Source: Nocardia iowensis
Lineage (GTDB): Bacteria > Actinomycetota > Actinomycetes > Mycobacteriales > Mycobacteriaceae
Assembly: GCF_019222765.1 (NCBI RefSeq)
Contig: NZ_CP078145.1
Span: 5,456,001 to 5,520,000, forward strand
Direction of reading: 5' to 3'
Length of the DNA stretch: 64,000 nucleotides
Of this stretch, positions 1 through 9,395 are shown piece after piece; within the stretch, counting starts at the first letter, position 1; each line of letters begins with the position of its first letter. Under the pieces are notes generated by a model. The model ran no database searches and had not been told where the DNA came from. It saw nothing but the letters and a program-made list of their open reading frames with translations. Made by a program: the position numbers and the translations under genes.

Positions 1-534
1 GTTGGCGAGCAAGGCGAAGTCATAGGTGGAAGCCCGTCCGGCATCGTCGCCGAAATATTCTGCGGCGGCGAGCAATTCGAGGGCTGTGCGGTGCTCGTTG
101 AAGATCGCCTCGGAGCCGCTGTACAGGATGGACGCGCCCGGCTGACCGATCATGGGCGGGATGGCCATGATGCCACCGTCGAGGTAGTCGATGCCGTGCT
201 CGGCCGCCCAGGTGGCCAGCTCGCGGGCCTCGTTGGGGGCGGTGCTGGTCAGATTGATCACCTGCCTGCCGGACAGTTCGTCGACCACGGGGTCGAGAGT
301 GGTGTGCACGGAGGCGTGGTCGAACAGGACGACGATGATCGGCCCGCCCGCCTGCACCGCCTCGGCAACCGACGGGGTGCTGACCGCCCCGGCCGCGCCG
401 AGGTCGGTGTCCTTGCCGGGGGTGCGGTTCCACACCGTCGTCGGATGGCCGCCCTTCAGCAGCGTGGCGGCCAGCGCCTGGCCCATCGCGCCTAGTCCGA
501 GGACCGTCACCGGGGTGTTCGTGGTTTCCGCCAT
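1..534 (-). CDS. NAD(P)-dependent 6-phosphogluconate-dehydrogenase-like / imine-reductase-like protein, C-terminus cut by the window edge
   Basis: The frame is open from the ATG at 534 to the window edge, giving 178 residues. The N-terminus holds a Rossmann motif (VLGLGAMGQALA), followed by NRTPGK, the family signature NLTSTAPNEA and the substrate-region motif DGGIMAIPPMIG. These place it with NAD(P)-binding 6PGDH-like oxidoreductases, a group that includes imine reductases; the substrate is unknown. An AAGGAG sits about 9 bases before the ATG. It is clearly paralogous to the gene at 40172-41041, including the MAIPP motif. It is divergent from an HxlR regulator across a palindrome, so that regulator probably controls it. 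The C-terminal helical domain lies outside the window. Confidence 0.85.
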   Translation of the reverse strand, partial: MAETTNTPVTVLGLGAMGQALAATLLKGGHPTTVWNRTPGKDTDLGAAGAVSTPSVAEAVQAGGPIIVVLFDHASVHTTLDPVVDELSGRQVINLTSTAPNEARELATWAAEHGIDYLDGGIMAIPPMIGQPGASILYSGSEAIFNEHRTALELLAAAEYFGDDAGRASTYDFALLAN

Positions 535-616
535 TGCGGGGTCAACTCCTTGGAAGTTCGTGAACAGGATGGTCAGCGCGCTGAAACCAACCCTGCTCGT
601 TGCCCGCGATGGCGAC

Positions 617-643
617 AAGTACCTACTATTTGGTCCGGTACTT
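617..643. promoter_or_regulatory. Candidate HxlR operator between divergent genes
   Basis: AAGTACC at 617-623 and its exact reverse complement GGTACTT at 637-643 flank a 13-base spacer in the 145-bp intergenic region between the dehydrogenase (minus) and the HxlR gene (plus). HxlR proteins are dimeric winged-helix repressors or activators that commonly act on an adjacent divergent gene. The assignment to this regulator is inference. Confidence 0.5.
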
Positions 644-679
644 ACCAATGGGTGTGTGAACAGGTAGCGAGGTCGGGCG

Positions 680-1039
680 TTGGGCGAAAAGAGATCTGGA
701 CCATACTTCTGCGGCATCGACGCCGCGATGGACGTGATCGGCGGCAAATGGAAAGCACTGATCCTGTGGGAGCTGGAGAACTACGGAGTCCGCCGCTTCG
801 GCGAACTCCGCCGCGGCCTGCCCGGCGTCTCGGAGAAGATGCTGATCCAGCAGCTGCGCGAGTTGGAGGAGGACGGCATCGTCACACGCGAGGTCTATCG
901 CGAGGTGCCGCCGCGGGTCGAATACCAACTCACCGAGCTGGGCACTGCCCTCAACCGCGCCCTCGAACCCCTCGGCGACTGGGGTCGTGACCGCATCGAG
1001 CGCATCGGCGCCAACCGCGTGCATCCGGTGACCACCTGA
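680..1039 (+). CDS. HxlR-family transcriptional regulator
   Basis: 119 residues, the usual size for an HxlR winged-helix protein. The N-terminal CGIDAAMDVIGGKWK stretch (Cys about residue 11, GGKW about 21-24) and the central FGELRRGLPGVSEKML recognition region are hallmarks of the family, followed by the wing around REVPPRVEYQLTELG. An in-frame stop at 665-667 leaves TTG at 680 as the earliest plausible start; the next is ATG at residue 17, which would cut the conserved N-terminus. It is divergent from the imine-reductase-like gene. HxlR proteins often sense electrophiles or quinones, but nothing here shows the ligand. The 264 bases after its stop show no gene. Confidence 0.9.
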   Translation: MGEKRSGPYFCGIDAAMDVIGGKWKALILWELENYGVRRFGELRRGLPGVSEKMLIQQLRELEEDGIVTREVYREVPPRVEYQLTELGTALNRALEPLGDWGRDRIERIGANRVHPVTT

Positions 1040-1303: not shown

Positions 1304-1684
1304 CTATTCGTCCCTCCGCGAGTGCGTCCGCATTGTGTATCCAACACACGCCACGAGGCTGTCTTCGCCGTCCGATTTGAGCGCCAGGCATTTCACCCGA
1401 TTCCAATCCGATTCCGGCAGGTCAGCAAAGCGTAAAATATCTTCGGCCTGCGATTCATCGGCTATGGCGAGTGTGAGTGGGTCGTAGTGTGTTTTGAGTT
1501 TCATCGCGATCACGTTGTGGAACTTCAGAACTATGAAATCGCTATCCGAATTCCTGCCAACGCTTCGTATTTCGAGTTCAGAATGACTGACCGAGTAGCG
1601 CCACGGCTTGAACTTTCTGTCGAAAAAAACTGGCAGGGATTCATTCAACCGTTCACCTTCATTCTGAGGTGAATGGATTGTCAT
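1304..1684 (-). CDS. Candidate immunity protein of the RHS toxin
   Basis: 126 residues with no family I recognise. Its ATG at 1684 lies inside the last codons of the RHS toxin gene (26-bp overlap), so the two are transcribed and probably translated together. Size, position directly after a variable toxin C-terminus, and visibly lower GC than the surrounding DNA all fit an immunity gene that travelled with its toxin tip. It has no signal peptide or membrane segment, so a cytoplasmic neutraliser is expected. The role is inferred from context only. Confidence 0.6.
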   Translation of the reverse strand: MTIHSPQNEGERLNESLPVFFDRKFKPWRYSVSHSELEIRSVGRNSDSDFIVLKFHNVIAMKLKTHYDPLTLAIADESQAEDILRFADLPESDWNRVKCLALKSDGEDSLVACVGYTMRTHSRRDE

Positions 1685-4600
1685 AACGACTTCCGTTTCT
1701 GTAGAAGAACACCTTGGACCACGAGCTCCGATTATCTTGGATAAAGCTTAGTTCCCACGGCGTTGCGTGTCCATCGAAGATAGGATCGAGCCCCCGAGCT
1801 GCCTGGGAGGACGCGATCCATTGGGCATCGTCCATGCCGTCCAAATTGAAGTGAATTGGCGTCTGACCATCGCGAACGTAGGCTTTGAACTCGTTGACCC
1901 AGTCTTCACCGCCAGACGGCCAATCATGGTAGGACTTGGCTCCGACAGCCTCAGCGAAGTTTTGCAGTGTGAGTGGATCCCCGTCCAATTCGCTGAAGCC
2001 GAGCGCAATGCCGCAGCTCTCCGGAGTCAATCCTAGGGGGTCGCTCCAGGTGGTGGGGTTGTGGGGGTAGATGTTCGGGTTCGGGGCCGGCGCTAGTCCG
2101 AGGGGGTCTTGGGTGAGGAATCGGGCGGTTGCGGGGTCGTAGGTGCGGTGCAGGTTGTAGTGCAGCCCTGTCTCTGGGTCGTGGATTTGACCGGGGAAGC
2201 GCAGCGGCGTGCTGACGGGGCCATGCCAGGTGGTGTTGCCCCACAGGTCCGCGGTCGCGGTGGCTACGGTGTGGGCGGTATCGGGCTCGATCAATTCGAC
2301 GGGCGTGCCGACCAGGTCGGTGACAATGGCGTAGAACTCGTGATCGATGCTGTTCTGATCGGTGGTTTGACTGATCGGGGTATAGGAGTCGGGCTGGTAA
2401 TGCCAGCGGGTGACCGCGGCGGCAGTGACTTGCTCGATGAGATGCGTGCCGTCCCAGGTGTAGTCGACGCGTTCAAGAACAGCCCCGTCGTTGGACAATA
2501 GCTGCTTGGTCGTGCGGCGGCCGAGTGCGTCGTAGGTGTAGTGCCACCACTGCCGATCCGGTGTCCAGACATCGGTGAGCTGGTCGAAGCTGTTATAGCG
2601 ATAGAACCAGGTCTCGGATTTGCGCGAGAGCCGCGTGCGGGTCTTGCGGATCAGCCGTCCGGATTCGTCGTAGTAATAGCGGGTTCGCCCGTCACGGATA
2701 AGCAGGTTGTCGCGGTACTCGCGCCGCTGCCCGAGTGTCCCCTGCTGAGGGGGCGCACCAGGACTGTCGTCGTGAACGCCCTGGTGCTCATCGACAGCGG
2801 ACAGGGTCGCGGTGATGTTGCTCAACGGGTCGTAGGCGTACTGCTCGGTCACAGTGCTGTTGCGCAGGACAGTGGTGATGCGGCCGAGCGGGTCGAGATC
2901 GTAGGCCCGTTCGATCACATCGGCCTCGGGCCGGGCGGTACGGTGGCCGACGAGGTATCCGTCTGGGCGGTAGGTGAATTCGTCGCGCCGCAGTTGATAG
3001 GGTGCCGGGCGGGTGGACTGGCCCATGTCGAGGGACAGGGCTTGCGCGGGGAAGGCGATTACCGCTTGGTCCAAGGTGCGGCCGGCCTCGGTGAGATTTC
3101 GGGTAACCGCGACTTCACCGGTGCGCCAACCGGTTAGGCGTCCGAGGGGGTCGTAGCTGAAGGAAACCTCGTGGTTGTCGGTGCTGAGACTGTCGAGGCG
3201 GCCGACGATGTCGTGGTGCCAGGCAGTGGTGGCGCCGGAGGGGGTAGTTCGGTGGGTTCGATTGCCCCGCTGGTCGTACTCGAACAGCATCGGCTGCTGC
3301 CCGTCCAGCTGCTCGGAGGCGATCTTTCTGGTTGCGGTGTAGGCGAATTCGAGGGTATGCGTCGTGTCCGCGCCGATGCCATTGACAGCTGTCAGGACTG
3401 CGCCAGCGGGATTGTAGGTGTAGCGGATCCAGGTGTCGTCGGCGGCGATCTCGGTGAGGCGGCCGAGGATGTCATGGCGGTGGCTGCGGGTGATGCCCGT
3501 CGGCGGTGTGACGGTGGCGACCCGCCCCACCCTGTCATGGGTGTATCGGGTTGTGGCACCGGAATAGTCGGTTTCGGCGGTCAGCCGCCCAGCCCTGTCG
3601 TATGTGTAACTCCAACTTTGGCCGAGCGGGTTCTGCACGGCCGTGAGCCGACGCTCGGTGTCCCAGGTAAACCGAGTGACCGAACCCGCGGGGTCGGTGC
3701 GGGTCTGCGGGAGATCGAAAGCGCCGTAGGTGAATCGGGTTATGCCACCGGCGCGGTCGGTGTGGGCGAGTACGTTGCCCTCACCGTCGTAGGTCCAGGA
3801 TTCGGAGTGGCCGTCGGGATCGGTTCTGCGGAGCAGTTTTCCGGTTGGTGACCACTCGTAGTGCGTTACCGCGCCGATCGAGTCGATGATCTGTGTCGGG
3901 CGTCCTGCGGCGTCGCGCTGGATCTGGGTGATCGCGCCGTGTGGCGCGGTGATTCGGACCGGTAGTCCGGCCGGGTTCACCTGGACTACGGTGCGTGCGC
4001 CGTTGGATTCGACGATCGTGGCGATGGCGCCGTTGGCGTGGTAGGTGAATTCGGTGCGGTCCCCCGCCGGGTCGATCATCGCGGACAGGTTGCCGTCCTC
4101 GGACCACTCGCGCTGCCAGATCGCGCCGTCCGGGGTGGTGATCTTGGTGGGGCGGTTTCGCCACAGGTATTCGATGAGGGTGGCGTTTCCGTCGGGGCGG
4201 GTGATTTTCGCCGGATCACCCGCGCCGTTGTAGAAGTAGGTGGTCTTCGCTCCGTCAGGGCCGGTGACGCTCAACGGTTTTCGGTCGGCGTTGTAGTCGA
4301 TGTGGGTGCGGCCACCGGTGGGGTCCATGATGTCGCGGAGTTGTAATTCGCGGTCGAAACCGTGGGTGGTGACCGCGCCGCGGGAGTCGGTGACGGTGGT
4401 GAAACGTCCGGTGCCGTCGGGGAGCGGCAGATAGTCGAAGTCGGAGTTCAGGATTCCGTCGGTACCGCGTTGGAAGACCACGCGGCCGGACTCGTCGTAG
4501 GTGTTGACCATCTGGTTGCCGTTGGAATCGGTCCATGACGTCATCCGATGGTCGGCGTCGTAGGTGTAGCGGGTGGTTGCGGCCGCGGCGTCGGTGACGG

Positions 4601-7600
4601 CGACCAAAAGGCCTGCGGCGTAGGTGAATTCTATTATGGGCGTGGCATATTCGCCGAGGTCTGGATTGTCGGTGATGAGTGACAGGCCGGTGATGCGCCC
4701 GTGGTCCGAATGGATTCGGACGCGGTATCCACCCGAGTGGGTGACTTCGGTCGGCACGCCGTCGGCGTCGTAGTGGAAGCGGACGCGGTTGTGGTGGCGG
4801 TCGGTGATGGCCGAGATCGCGTAGTTGCCGAGGCGGGCTTCGATGCCGTCGAGGCCTAGTTCGGGGGCGAAATGCCAGATCAATTCGCGGCGCTGGTCCC
4901 ATACGCGGTAGCCGCCGGAGTCGGTTCGGGTCAACGACCATTGCTGGCCCTCGCTGAGCGGGTGCACGGGGACCCCGACCTCGGCGTGTGGGTAGGCCAG
5001 CATCATGCCGTCTTCACCGATGAACGTTACGCCCGCATCCTCGATGACCAGCCGGACATCCAGGGTGGCCGACCAGGAAGGGCCGAACCAGCGACCGAAT
5101 CGGTAGTTCGAGTGGTGAGCGCGCCGCAGTACCAGCGGCAGCACACCCGGCAGTGCGAGATCTGTTTCGGGAAGCAGGAATTCGCCGGTGCTGATATCTA
5201 CCGGGTCGGTGGAACAGGTCTTCTGCTCCGGCGTGCGATCGGATTCCGAACCCGACTCGCGAGCCTGCTCGTGCGCGTTGCGGTCGGCGACTGCGCGGTC
5301 TTGCGGCGTCGGGTTGTCGGAGTCGTGGTCGGGTCGTGGTTCCCGATCGGGGTCGGAGTCTCGGTCAGACTTCGGGTCATGGTCGGACTTCGGATCACGG
5401 TCCGACTCAGGGTCACGATCGGACTTCGGATCACGGTCGGACTTCGGATCACGGTCCGACTCAGGGTCACGATCGGACTTCGGATCACGGTCGGACTTCG
5501 GATCACGGTCCGACTCAGGGTCACGATCGGACTTCGGATCACGGTCGGACTTCGGATCACGGTCCGACTCAGGGTCACGATCGGACTTCGGATCACGATC
5601 GGACTTCGGATCACGATCAGACTTCGAGTCACGATCCCGTGGTGGGTCTTCCGGACCCCGCGGACGGTCGTGCCCATCACCGCGATCGCGCGTTCGGTCC
5701 GGATCATGATGCGGGGTACGCGGATTCGCGTCGTCAGGTCCTCGGCGAGGTTCCGGATCCGATCGCCGCGGTGCATCCGGGTCGGACCGGGTGGACGGAT
5801 CGGCGTGCGCGCGTTGCGGCGTATGGTCCGGAGTCGGACGACCGGTTGCGGGCGAATGAGGTTGCGTGCGGGCCGCCGGTGACGACTGCGGATCGGCCCG
5901 GACGGCGGCCACGGGTTCGCGGCTGGGGGTTTCCCTTGGCGTGGGGTCCGGATGCACACGTGTTGCGGGTTCGGGGCGCACGTGCGGCCTGGATTCCGGT
6001 TGCGTGCGCGGGGTGGTCGCCGGGTCGCCATGTGGACGGGTAGCAGGCGACGGGTCGGCGTGTGGGCGGGTCGGCGACGACGAGTCCGGTTGTGTGCGCG
6101 GTGTCGGACTGTCGGCGTGGGTGACCGGACTGTGCCACCCTGGCGTCGGGGCCGGATCAGTGCGTCCCGCGGGCGTGGTATCGGGATCGGTGCGCGGCGT
6201 CGGCGTGCCGTCATCGCGTCCGCCGGGTGACTGGTCCGAGTCGGGGCGATTGACGGGCGACTGGTCCGGATCTGGGCGCCCAGCGGGCGTGTGGTCGGGG
6301 TCCGGTCGAACCGGCTGTGCCGCATCGGGATTCGTCCTCGGCGTGCCGTCCGAATCGGGCGATGGGCGATCAGCATCCGGCCGTTGGGTGGGCGTCGGAT
6401 CGGGATCCGCGTGCGAAGCCGGTCCCGGATCGTGGCGTGATTCCGGTGTCGGATCCGCATCCGGACGGGCAGTCGGGTTCGGATCGGCCTCCGTGCGCGG
6501 TGTGGAATCGGGGTCGGTGCGGGAGGTGGGGGAAGGATCGGTGCGTGTTGCCGGGTCGGGCTCGGTTCGCGACGTCGGCGTGGGATCAGACTCCGAACGC
6601 GACGTCGGCGTCGGGTCAGAGTCCGAACGCGAGGTCGGCGTCGGATCAGGATTGGCCCGCGGCGTGGGATCGGGATCAGCCCGCGGCGTCGGATCAGGAT
6701 CAACACGCGGCGTCGGCGTGGAGTCCGACTGCGGCCGAGAAGCCAAGTCAGGATCGGGATCCGGACGCGGTGTGGGCGTCGGATCCGGATCCGCGCGGTT
6801 ACCAGCGGGCTCGGTGCGCGGCGACGGATCGGGGTCGGACCGCGGCGACGGGTCCGGATCGGCACGCGGCGCCTGGTCTGGATCAGGACGCGAACTGGGC
6901 GTCGGATCGGGGTCCGAATGCGGCGTGGGGTCAGGTTCGGGTTCGGGTTCCGAACGCTGCCGCGGCGCCGGATCGGGTTCGGCACGCGTGTCCGGATTGT
7001 TCGCCGGCGACTCCGAGCGTTGCGGACTCGATTGCTCCGGCGTCGTCGACGGACCATCGCCCGTGTCGGCTCTCGGCGCGGGCGATTCCGGCCGACTGCT
7101 CGCATCGACCGGATTCGTCGGCGTCGGCCTGGTATCGGAATGCGGTGCCGGACCGGCACTCGGGCTCTCCGGCGTTGGTGTCTGCCCCACCCGTCCCTGC
7201 GGTTCGGTGGGCAGCCGTCGCCCGAGGTCACCGGCGTCGTCGGCGAAACGGGTGAGCCTGGACGCGTCGGTGATCTTCTTCAGCGCGCTGACCCCGAGCT
7301 TGGCGCTACCGGCACCGCCGGTAGCGGCGGTCAGCAGCGCGTCGCCGGTCAGCGCACCGAGGAATTCGAACGGATTGCGGCGCGCGTCGGACAATATCGC
7401 CGACACCGTGGCACCCGGATCGGCCGCTGCGACAACCAATCCCGTGCCGAGGTTGGAGAGTCCAGCGGCGTACTCGGCCGGGTGGGTCAGGTTGTAGATG
7501 TCGGTCGGATTGACCTGCCGGGCGAACTGGACGAGCCCGGTGAGGCTGGTGAGCAGACCTGCGGAGAAGTTCAACGCCCCGTGCTCGAGCACCCCACCCA

Positions 7601-8366
7601 AGTCCGAGATGTTGGCCATCCACCGTTCGGTGAACGGCGGCTCCTTCGGCGCCTTCTCGGTGGCCGCCGCGAACGCGCTGACCGCGACGGAAGCGCCGTT
7701 GTCACGTTGTGTTCGCGCGCCGCGCAGGATCTCGCGCGCCTGGTTGCGCATCGATGTCCAGGTGTCGACCAGCGGGGTCTGCGCCTGCTGTTCCCCGGAA
7801 AGCGAGTTCCACCAGGTCTTTTGCCTGCGTTCCTCGGCGTCGGCGGCCTTCCATTTATCGATCGCGTCCGCGGCCTTGCTCTGCGCGGTTTTCACCTCGT
7901 TGTGCCAGGCATCCATGGCCTTGGCGGCCGCGGTCATCGCGTCGGCACCCTCGAACCACAGCTTCGGTTGTTTGTCGTAGACCTCGTTGAACGCGTCCGC
8001 ACCCGCACCGACCCAGTCGGCGGCGTCGATCTGCTTGAGGGCCTGGCCGGTGGAGTCGATCGCACTGGCCATCTTCTTCAAGGTATCTGCGGTGGAGCTG
8101 ATTTCGGCGGGTTCGCCGCGGATCAACTCTTTGGGGTCTTCCGTCTCGCCGAGTTCCTCCTCATCGACATTGCCACCGGTGCCCGAGGCGATGTTGTCGC
8201 CGAGGTCGTCGAGGCCCTCCCCCAGGCTGTCGAGGCCGATCGCTTTCGCCCCGTCGCCGAGTACGTCCAACCCGGCGTCCGCGAGCTGACCGGCACCCTC
8301 GACGACCGATTCGACACCCTTCTCGATCGCGTCGCCGACATCATTGATGAAATCGCCGAGCCCCAA
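1659..8366 (-). CDS. RHS/YD-repeat polymorphic toxin with T7SS-type N-terminal region
   Basis: 2235 residues from TTG at 8366. An upstream extension of the frame would run through the preceding gene; this TTG lies two bases after that gene's stop, with a G-rich stretch as ribosome site. Order of parts: helical N-terminus resembling secreted WXG/T7SS toxins (about 1-390); an Asp/Pro/Thr/Arg-rich disordered linker (about 390-905) ending in tandem SDRDPK/E repeats (about 909-1006); a DUF6531-like start (STDPVDISTGEF, about 1050); YD repeats (about 1150-2050); the RHS core end (RFLTQDPLGL then YPHNPTTWSDPLGL, about 2080-2110); and a 125-residue variable tip. The tip contains YHDWP, HFNLDG, WEL and a terminal NPF-type motif, a pattern I associate with RHS tips of unknown activity. 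Likely exported and involved in interbacterial competition. Confidence 0.88.
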   Translation of the reverse strand: MGLGDFINDVGDAIEKGVESVVEGAGQLADAGLDVLGDGAKAIGLDSLGEGLDDLGDNIASGTGGNVDEEELGETEDPKELIRGEPAEISSTADTLKKMASAIDSTGQALKQIDAADWVGAGADAFNEVYDKQPKLWFEGADAMTAAAKAMDAWHNEVKTAQSKAADAIDKWKAADAEERRQKTWWNSLSGEQQAQTPLVDTWTSMRNQAREILRGARTQRDNGASVAVSAFAAATEKAPKEPPFTERWMANISDLGGVLEHGALNFSAGLLTSLTGLVQFARQVNPTDIYNLTHPAEYAAGLSNLGTGLVVAAADPGATVSAILSDARRNPFEFLGALTGDALLTAATGGAGSAKLGVSALKKITDASRLTRFADDAGDLGRRLPTEPQGRVGQTPTPESPSAGPAPHSDTRPTPTNPVDASSRPESPAPRADTGDGPSTTPEQSSPQRSESPANNPDTRAEPDPAPRQRSEPEPEPDPTPHSDPDPTPSSRPDPDQAPRADPDPSPRSDPDPSPRTEPAGNRADPDPTPTPRPDPDPDLASRPQSDSTPTPRVDPDPTPRADPDPTPRANPDPTPTSRSDSDPTPTSRSESDPTPTSRTEPDPATRTDPSPTSRTDPDSTPRTEADPNPTARPDADPTPESRHDPGPASHADPDPTPTQRPDADRPSPDSDGTPRTNPDAAQPVRPDPDHTPAGRPDPDQSPVNRPDSDQSPGGRDDGTPTPRTDPDTTPAGRTDPAPTPGWHSPVTHADSPTPRTQPDSSSPTRPHADPSPATRPHGDPATTPRTQPESRPHVRPEPATRVHPDPTPRETPSREPVAAVRADPQSSPAARTQPHSPATGRPTPDHTPQRAHADPSTRSDPDAPRRSDPEPRRGPDDANPRTPHHDPDRTRDRGDGHDRPRGPEDPPRDRDSKSDRDPKSDRDPKSDRDPESDRDPKSDRDPKSDRDPESDRDPKSDRDPKSDRDPESDRDPKSDRDPKSDRDPESDRDPKSDHDPKSDRDSDPDREPRPDHDSDNPTPQDRAVADRNAHEQARESGSESDRTPEQKTCSTDPVDISTGEFLLPETDLALPGVLPLVLRRAHHSNYRFGRWFGPSWSATLDVRLVIEDAGVTFIGEDGMMLAYPHAEVGVPVHPLSEGQQWSLTRTDSGGYRVWDQRRELIWHFAPELGLDGIEARLGNYAISAITDRHHNRVRFHYDADGVPTEVTHSGGYRVRIHSDHGRITGLSLITDNPDLGEYATPIIEFTYAAGLLVAVTDAAAATTRYTYDADHRMTSWTDSNGNQMVNTYDESGRVVFQRGTDGILNSDFDYLPLPDGTGRFTTVTDSRGAVTTHGFDRELQLRDIMDPTGGRTHIDYNADRKPLSVTGPDGAKTTYFYNGAGDPAKITRPDGNATLIEYLWRNRPTKITTPDGAIWQREWSEDGNLSAMIDPAGDRTEFTYHANGAIATIVESNGARTVVQVNPAGLPVRITAPHGAITQIQRDAAGRPTQIIDSIGAVTHYEWSPTGKLLRRTDPDGHSESWTYDGEGNVLAHTDRAGGITRFTYGAFDLPQTRTDPAGSVTRFTWDTERRLTAVQNPLGQSWSYTYDRAGRLTAETDYSGATTRYTHDRVGRVATVTPPTGITRSHRHDILGRLTEIAADDTWIRYTYNPAGAVLTAVNGIGADTTHTLEFAYTATRKIASEQLDGQQPMLFEYDQRGNRTHRTTPSGATTAWHHDIVGRLDSLSTDNHEVSFSYDPLGRLTGWRTGEVAVTRNLTEAGRTLDQAVIAFPAQALSLDMGQSTRPAPYQLRRDEFTYRPDGYLVGHRTARPEADVIERAYDLDPLGRITTVLRNSTVTEQYAYDPLSNITATLSAVDEHQGVHDDSPGAPPQQGTLGQRREYRDNLLIRDGRTRYYYDESGRLIRKTRTRLSRKSETWFYRYNSFDQLTDVWTPDRQWWHYTYDALGRRTTKQLLSNDGAVLERVDYTWDGTHLIEQVTAAAVTRWHYQPDSYTPISQTTDQNSIDHEFYAIVTDLVGTPVELIEPDTAHTVATATADLWGNTTWHGPVSTPLRFPGQIHDPETGLHYNLHRTYDPATARFLTQDPLGLAPAPNPNIYPHNPTTWSDPLGLTPESCGIALGFSELDGDPLTLQNFAEAVGAKSYHDWPSGGEDWVNEFKAYVRDGQTPIHFNLDGMDDAQWIASSQAARGLDPIFDGHATPWELSFIQDNRSSWSKVFFYRNGSRYDNPFTSE
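5349..5640. repeat. 18-bp / 54-bp in-frame tandem repeat inside the RHS gene
   Basis: A unit of the type TCGGACTTCGGATCACGG (18 bp) is repeated back to back. Every third unit differs (GACTCAGGG), making a 54-bp higher-order repeat. On the minus strand it encodes SDRDPK-SDRDPK-SDRDPE. The middle copies are nearly identical at DNA level and the edge copies are degenerate, which suggests recent copy-number change by slippage or recombination. Repeat length keeps the frame. Confidence 0.9.
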
Positions 8367-8368
8367 AG

Positions 8369-8986
8369 CTATTGCCCCCCTGACTCCTTCATGATGTCGG
8401 CGGCCGTCTTCGAGGCACCGGTGTTCCAGCCGGGCGTCTCGCCGGTGGCGAGGCCACTCAACGGGCTGACATTCGCCAACGCCTGTGGGCCGACCGCCTC
8501 GATCACCTTCATGTTCGTTTGCATCGTCTGCCCCGCCTTCTGGAACGACTCCGCACTGTAGTCCGCGTTGCGTATGTGGTTGAAGGCGTTGTCGGAGAAG
8601 GTATCTCCCCACGACCGCGAGGTGATCTGTTCGTCGGACAGGTGTGGGTTACCGGCCAGGTGCGTCCACATCTTCTTCAAGGTGCCCTCGGCCTTGGAGT
8701 CCATCTCGTGATAGCGACCTGCCGCGAGGCCGAGGGTTCGCGCGATCGAGTTGCCCGCCTGCACGAGTGCGCGCACACCCCACGACCAGCGCTCGGTGAA
8801 CTCCTCGAAGGTCTTCTGCACCGTGTGCTTGCCTGCCTCCATTGTCGACAAGGTCAACAACGAGAAACCGCGCCCCATGTTGCCCGTTTCACCGATGCCC
8901 ATATTCGACAGCTCACCGATGGTCGACTCGATCCCCTTCGCGGCTTGTACCAGCACCGCAGGGTCCACCTTCACCTGCTGTGTCAT
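8369..8986 (-). CDS. WXG100-like T7SS-associated helical protein, partner of the RHS toxin
   Basis: 205 residues, predicted mostly helical, beginning MTQQVKVDPAVLVQAAKGIE, which resembles ESX/WXG100-type N-terminal helices. A Trp-rich turn, ERWSWG, lies about residue 65 where a WXG turn would fall, and a second helical half follows. In actinobacterial toxin operons such proteins usually form the secretion partner or chaperone of the downstream toxin. The stop is two bases before the RHS start and 22 bases separate it from the SseB-like gene upstream, so the genes form one operon. It is longer than canonical 100-residue WXG100 proteins. Confidence 0.65.
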   Translation of the reverse strand: MTQQVKVDPAVLVQAAKGIESTIGELSNMGIGETGNMGRGFSLLTLSTMEAGKHTVQKTFEEFTERWSWGVRALVQAGNSIARTLGLAAGRYHEMDSKAEGTLKKMWTHLAGNPHLSDEQITSRSWGDTFSDNAFNHIRNADYSAESFQKAGQTMQTNMKVIEAVGPQALANVSPLSGLATGETPGWNTGASKTAADIMKESGGQ

Positions 8987-9008: not shown

Positions 9009-9395
9009 TTACTCGGTCACATCGGGCGGAAATGCCATCGGCGCCGACCCCACGACGTCGACAGTGACGCCGGTCGGCTGATCGCGTGTTTCGGCGTAAG
9101 CGAGCAGGCGCCACCCGGACAATGAATGATATCGATACTCCCGGTCGGCGTCGATGCCGCCGTCGGCCAGATAACCACGAGCCATCATGTATCGGGCGTA
9201 CTCCTCGATGCTGGTGAAGGCGCACAACCAGTCGATGCCACCGAATTGCGAAACATACACGCGCTCGTCATCGGTCACCGGCACCAGCAGGGCAGCCTCC
9301 CGAAATGCGGCCAGCAGGGCGTCGGGTTGACCGAAGCCCGCATAGAACGCGGCTATTTCACTGCGCAGAGCGGCCCGGCCGTCGCCATCCCCCAC
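9009..9395 (-). CDS. SseB-like domain protein, first gene of the toxin operon
   Basis: 128 residues starting at GTG 9395 behind a strong GAGGAGGAGG. The core (LLVPVTDDERVYVSQFGG, then AFTSIEEYARYM) resembles the SseB-like fold, in which a small protein is turned into an 'LxVxxxxG / AFTS' module found beside WXG100 and toxin genes in actinobacteria. It heads the minus-strand operon of helical protein, RHS toxin and immunity gene. A chaperone or adaptor role in toxin export is plausible but not shown by the sequence. Confidence 0.6.
   Translation of the reverse strand: MGDGDGRAALRSEIAAFYAGFGQPDALLAAFREAALLVPVTDDERVYVSQFGGIDWLCAFTSIEEYARYMMARGYLADGGIDADREYRYHSLSGWRLLAYAETRDQPTGVTVDVVGSAPMAFPPDVTE

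Follow-up and report, generated by a model that had tools for sequence, protein, structure and literature searches.

The window analysed here is a 64-kb stretch of the Nocardia iowensis genome (contig NZ_CP078145.1, positions 5,456,001 to 5,520,000), and the subject is an RHS gene on its minus strand, the 3' end of which encodes a predicted toxin tip, together with the small gene that follows. The RHS open reading frame (ORF) spans 1659..8612, and its probable start is TTG 8366, directly 3' of the stop codon of an EspC-like gene, which would give a gene of 1659..8366 encoding 2235 aa with its stop codon at 1659-1661. The last 116 residues form the tip (IALGF...NPFTSE; 1662..2009, minus strand; AlphaFold2 pLDDT 92.6, pTM 0.86). 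As stated in the initial annotation, the tip follows the conserved end of the RHS core (RHS-associated core domain, 2028..2246, minus strand; TIGR03696, E 1.3e-19), and the motifs YHDWP, HFNLDG, WEL and NPF described there all lie within it. The next gene on the same strand (1304..1684) encodes an immunity-protein candidate of 126 aa when read from ATG 1684, with a predicted mostly-beta fold. Very probably, the region is a toxin/immunity cassette that can be exchanged horizontally and that occupies the 3' end of an RHS gene, the product of which is probably secreted by a type VII system. The anatomy of the cassette, its boundary, the swapping, the conserved partner and the link to a toxin superfamily are well supported by comparative genomics.

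The two genes are AT-rich, as had been claimed: GC is 0.537 (GC at third codon positions, GC3, 0.612) in the tip and 0.505 (GC3 0.587) in the immunity candidate, versus 0.647 (GC3 0.810) in the RHS core at 2010-4700. None of the 2085 same-length stretches upstream of the tip in the RHS ORF is equally AT-rich, and 9 of 1274 steps across the window are as AT-rich as the tip. Among the seven of these nine that were listed (GC <=0.53), the starts fall at 1301-1601, inside the toxin/immunity module.

A breakpoint in the DNA was found at the core end. In blastn comparisons with eight sister RHS cores, nucleotide similarity stops within 2014..2038 (at 2032 in six cores, 2038 in one and 2014 in one). 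The core end is present in 78 of 148 genomes of the genus, and the tip in 3 of 150, namely the window itself, a 57-residue fragment (L009) and a distant relative (L010). A six-frame search of 30 fetched core loci recovered the tip solely at the window's locus (E 3.9e-47; next best 4.2) and at none of the other 29. The 17 core loci with printable tails all differ in these tails (13 of the 30 gave none because of a pattern mismatch, and the six-frame search took in all 30). At L057, the core is 83% identical, yet the terminal tip is unrelated. Among 60 relatives and 394 genomes of the class, the tip was found nowhere except at the window's own locus, and the plasmids searched contained none.

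The two best-scoring relatives of the tip, 76% and 73% identical to it, belong to Nocardia, and the carriers in two other Nocardia are DUF6531-RHS proteins without a T7SS_signal match. Other carriers are HINT-RHS proteins of Streptosporangium (with DNRLRE), Actinomadura, Spirillospora, Solwaraspora and Lentzea, and ALF-repeat proteins without an RHS match in Streptomyces hygroscopicus (with HINT) and S. orinoci; in Actinokineospora and Yinghuangia, the tips are preceded by ends that were judged HINT-like by eye. The mobile, swappable nature proposed for the tip is thus borne out by the breakpoint, the 29 core loci lacking it and the variety of carriers. In another genome of the genus, L009 (529-1725, plus strand) carries the 57-residue tip piece as part of a fusion with an EspC/WXG/PPE-like type VII protein, apparently a recombination scar. 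Tips also occur as short orphan ORFs (L015, L017, L021 and L032). Two of these, L017 and L032, are one orphan tip/immunity cassette found at 64 kb (minus strand) and 9.20 Mb (plus strand) of one contig, a mirror orientation that would fit the terminal inverted repeats of a linear chromosome. In addition, two 128-aa proteins without a Pfam match (P0035 and P0036; E 1e-3 and 4e-3) contain IALG...HFNL...TAWEL, lack the NPF end and are possibly carrier-free tip relatives.

The coupling of the tip to the small gene was followed across these relatives. A homologous small gene lies 3' of the tip at all 13 other places with an NPF- or SPF-ended tip, a count that was made with the first immunity profile only because later profiles were trained on earlier neighbours. 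Close homologs lacking such a neighbour, which would have spoken against the module, were not encountered among these places. Over the whole superfamily, with all three profiles, a homolog is next to the tip in 29 of 43 places and was not detectable in 14 (L029 and L044 make up a single place in this count, as do both L043 tips). By homology and adjacency, the small gene is a candidate cognate immunity gene. In L024 (1484-2005) and L030 (1493-1987), orphan immunity genes carry a remnant of the tip at their 5' end, consisting of its last 27 and 21 residues, respectively.

The 26-bp overlap reported between the two genes (1659..1684, minus strand) is present if ATG 1684 is used. The database version of the immunity protein, P0008, has 114 aa and uses a TTG located 12 codons further on, with which the overlap would vanish. 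Since GGAAG precedes ATG 1684 and GAAGGTGA precedes the TTG, both starts are plausible. Counting the window, 14 places have an NPF- or SPF-ended tip; ten of these show overlaps of 20-26 bp, two show overlaps of 8 and 103 bp, and in the last two the genes are 4 and 8 bp apart. ORFs in this survey were extended to the first start codon, so that overlaps of up to 316 bp in it do not reflect true overlaps between genes. Sharing of the NPF-coding DNA probably imposes part of the overlap.

The immunity candidate gave no match in Pfam, NCBIfam or PADLOC and two weak matches in PHROGs (E 0.087 and 0.27). With its 31 aligned relatives, it matched no named immunity family in Pfam; the Pfam matches within the family were to three non-immunity families (best E 0.0087). 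DUF2152, matched by 6 of 32 members with a best E of 0.0087, was judged a chance hit. A sequence search of solved structures with the immunity profiles returned nothing meaningful.

The initial annotation had described an activity without a name, and the tip has no direct match in Pfam (E 1), NCBIfam, PHROGs or PADLOC. This description needs amending, in that a named family, Ntox27 (PF15531), is distantly related to the tip; one activity of that family has been predicted in print, and a second may be proposed. The window tip itself is not matched by the PF15531 model at E 1 or at E 0.5. When the alignment was widened through the genus of L004, the tip was found in 18 of 392 genomes, among them that of L004, and the widened set reached tips that do match PF15531 (L026, E 5.7e-8; L029, E 1.1e-16). 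A separate search for the PF15531 family covered 246 genomes, with 21 positive. The 34-tip profile, which already contains a few PF15531-matching tips, recovers loci L033-L054 of the PF15531 search at E <= 1e-3, the 42-residue fragment L049 being the one exception. Individually, 14 of the 42 aligned tips match PF15531 with an E of 0.5 or lower. Short ORFs from metagenomes account for some rows of A5 and A8.

The table of Zhang et al. (2012; PMC3482391) enters Ntox27 as a predicted metal-independent RNase with the motif D, E, RxW and the carriers HINT, ALF and RHS, and gives no immunity protein for it. A search of the open literature (Ntox27, polymorphic toxin type 27, PF15531) revealed no later report of an activity or an immunity partner. 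Conservation in the 42 relatives is complete for E86 (42/42) and high for W37 (39/42) and D57 (32/42), all of which are kept in the window tip and which we read as the E, W and D of the 2012 motif; the best basic column reaches 27/42, and His, Lys and Arg are nowhere strongly conserved. The window tip lacks the R of RxW and has E at position W-2. The window tip and Ntox27 have in common an L-D-G strand end, the TxWE motif, Trp37, the immunity family (loci L033-L043) and carriers (HINT, RHS and ALF) that match those in the 2012 table; identity to the typical Ntox27 tips L033, L035 and L041 is 17-22%, and the window tip ends in NPF. Since the Pfam model missed the tip and the R of RxW is lacking, the tip was filed as a sister branch and not as Ntox27 proper. 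By iterated profile comparison, it is assigned to the Ntox27 superfamily as such a sister branch, and the immunity family of the window, which has no Pfam entry, appears to serve many Ntox27 tips as well. At L043 (genus of G561), two different superfamily tips stand in tandem (2587-3276 and 1444-1833).

For the mode of action, we tentatively propose, at a little below an even chance, that the tip works as a small nucleoside deoxyribosyltransferase (NDT)/TIR-type glycohydrolase, with Glu86 acting on NAD(P)+ or nucleotides. The tip would be released from the RHS protein into the cytoplasm of a competitor and act there as a small alpha/beta enzyme, in which Glu86 (codon 1752..1754, minus strand), located on the helix that precedes the final pair of strands and the sole invariant column, would break an N-glycosidic bond. 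The substrate would most likely be NAD(P)+, otherwise nucleosides or nucleotides, and in the producing cell binding of the immunity protein to the tip would block the site. This proposal draws on suggestive evidence: weak fold matches of the tip to PF05014, TIR and SEFIR, a short motif around Glu86 that lines up with the Glu of NDTs in the pooled set of all tips, and the lack of a well-conserved His, Lys or Arg. The domain content of chains 9ot1, 8spo, 8ifl and 8qbk is assigned with the help of their titles.

The alignment with the NDT Glu motif was not reproduced with the window branch alone, and three NDTs chosen independently of the motif gave no signal. None of the 42 tips matches PF05014 or any TIR family in Pfam, Foldseek gave no significant fold match for the tip, none was found in the viral fold library, and a sequence search of solved structures gave no meaningful match to the tip or Ntox27 profiles. 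A TIR profile run against the tips was rejected, since its score of 15.6 is below the shuffle maximum of 19.2; the shuffles preserve column composition and not the structure of a real family, which makes them a lenient null. The first NDT set, from which rows L131 and L136 were removed before comparison, had been gathered with a DNA pattern containing the motif itself, and the test was therefore repeated with Pfam-selected NDTs (19 loci from the phylum search, together with L086 and L087, leaving out partial or weaker loci), with which the pooled tips again shared the motif.

The lack of a significant fold match would also suit a tip that is an enzyme of another or new fold, such as an ADP-ribosyl-cyclase-like NADase or a nucleic-acid base glycosidase, with the NDT/TIR likeness reflecting a common alpha/beta arrangement; this we regard as unlikely. 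The stretch around NLDG and TAWE may resemble the CD38/ADP-ribosyl cyclase family. ADP-ribosyl cyclase toxins, in the sections of PMC12605009 drawn on here, depend on Trp and Glu, and the tip has a conserved Trp and one invariant Glu, but their site has two Glu. A metal-independent RNase tip within the same module, as listed by Zhang et al. with the motif D, E, RxW (PMC3482391), is less likely still: D57, E86 and W37 are retained, but E86 is the only invariant column, D57 and the best basic column fall well short of it, the R of RxW is missing, and the best VIA entries are not RNases (an absence there excludes nothing). It is very improbable that the tip merely caps the C-terminus in a degenerate or non-toxic form and that the small gene is no antidote; tip fragments such as the L009 fusion do occur, but the window tip has its full length and keeps the invariant Glu, and tip and neighbour are found together, co-varying, at the 13 other NPF/SPF-tip places. 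The glycohydrolase proposal may extend to the whole Ntox27 superfamily, which would then consist of minimal NDT/TIR-fold glycohydrolases (about 115-150 aa) acting on NAD(P)+ or nucleotides with one Glu, not of RNases, and many of which share one unlisted immunity family; this extension is possible, at somewhat less than an even chance. The initial interpretation of the module was largely right, and what is new is the link of the branch to Ntox27, the conserved immunity family and one named residue, Glu86. If the glycohydrolase proposal is true, a small NDT/TIR-type enzyme joins the probably type-VII-delivered weapons of actinobacteria.

Upstream of the tip, the RHS protein contains a T7SS_signal domain, a putative type VII secretion signal (7638..8324, minus strand; PF21725, E 4e-68), of which there is one occurrence in the 8.95-Mb genome, followed by DUF6531 at the start of the RHS shell (4992..5207, minus strand; PF20148) and 12 stretches of RHS repeats (PF05593). 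Also on the minus strand, the putative operon begins with a gene for an SseB-N-terminal-like protein (9009..9395; PF07179, E 3.3e-6), followed by one for a small EspC/WXG100-like protein (8369..8986; PF10824, E 2.6e-6), a possible co-secretion partner of the RHS protein. PF21725 and the EspC-like neighbour together point to the secretion signal of an RHS polymorphic toxin module, and delivery is probably via type VII; in the part of PMC11217815 drawn on here, candidate substrates of the type VII secretion system (T7SS) include RHS proteins, and the Nocardia T7SS is ESX-4. In the linker ahead of the shell, a near-perfect tandem array with a 54-bp unit (5353-5636; five copies, 96% match, 18-bp sub-unit) encodes a Ser/Asp/Arg/Lys/Pro-rich repeat, preceded by a long Asp-Pro-rich stretch. 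Past the immunity gene lies a divergent pair, a PF03446 NAD-binding 6-phosphogluconate-dehydrogenase-like oxidoreductase (1-747, minus strand) and a HxlR-type regulator (680-1039, plus strand; PF01638), without an evident toxin connection.

Compared with known systems, the immunity candidate has 12% identity and no sequence match to PIM7(Bc), the immunity protein of the polymorphic toxin PT7 (PDB 8owu), of which chain E is taken to be the immunity protein from the title. The Serratia Rhs NADase modules, as described in the portion of PMC10539506 used, are alike in the RHS carrier, the exchangeable C-terminal toxin and the immunity gene directly downstream; orphan immunity genes occur in both, and their chemistry is that proposed for the tip. 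The likeness is one of description, and the Serratia modules are type VI with a demonstrated NAD(P)+ glycohydrolase, whereas the window has a type VII signal and a predicted activity. ARCtox/Tac1, in the passages of PMC12605009 and PMC12356396 relied on here, differ in having two active-site Glu and the CD38 fold; likened by description to the window tip, they are also small NAD(P)+-depleting polymorphic toxins with a Trp and Glu site and a cognate immunity protein, and some of them are T7SS-associated.
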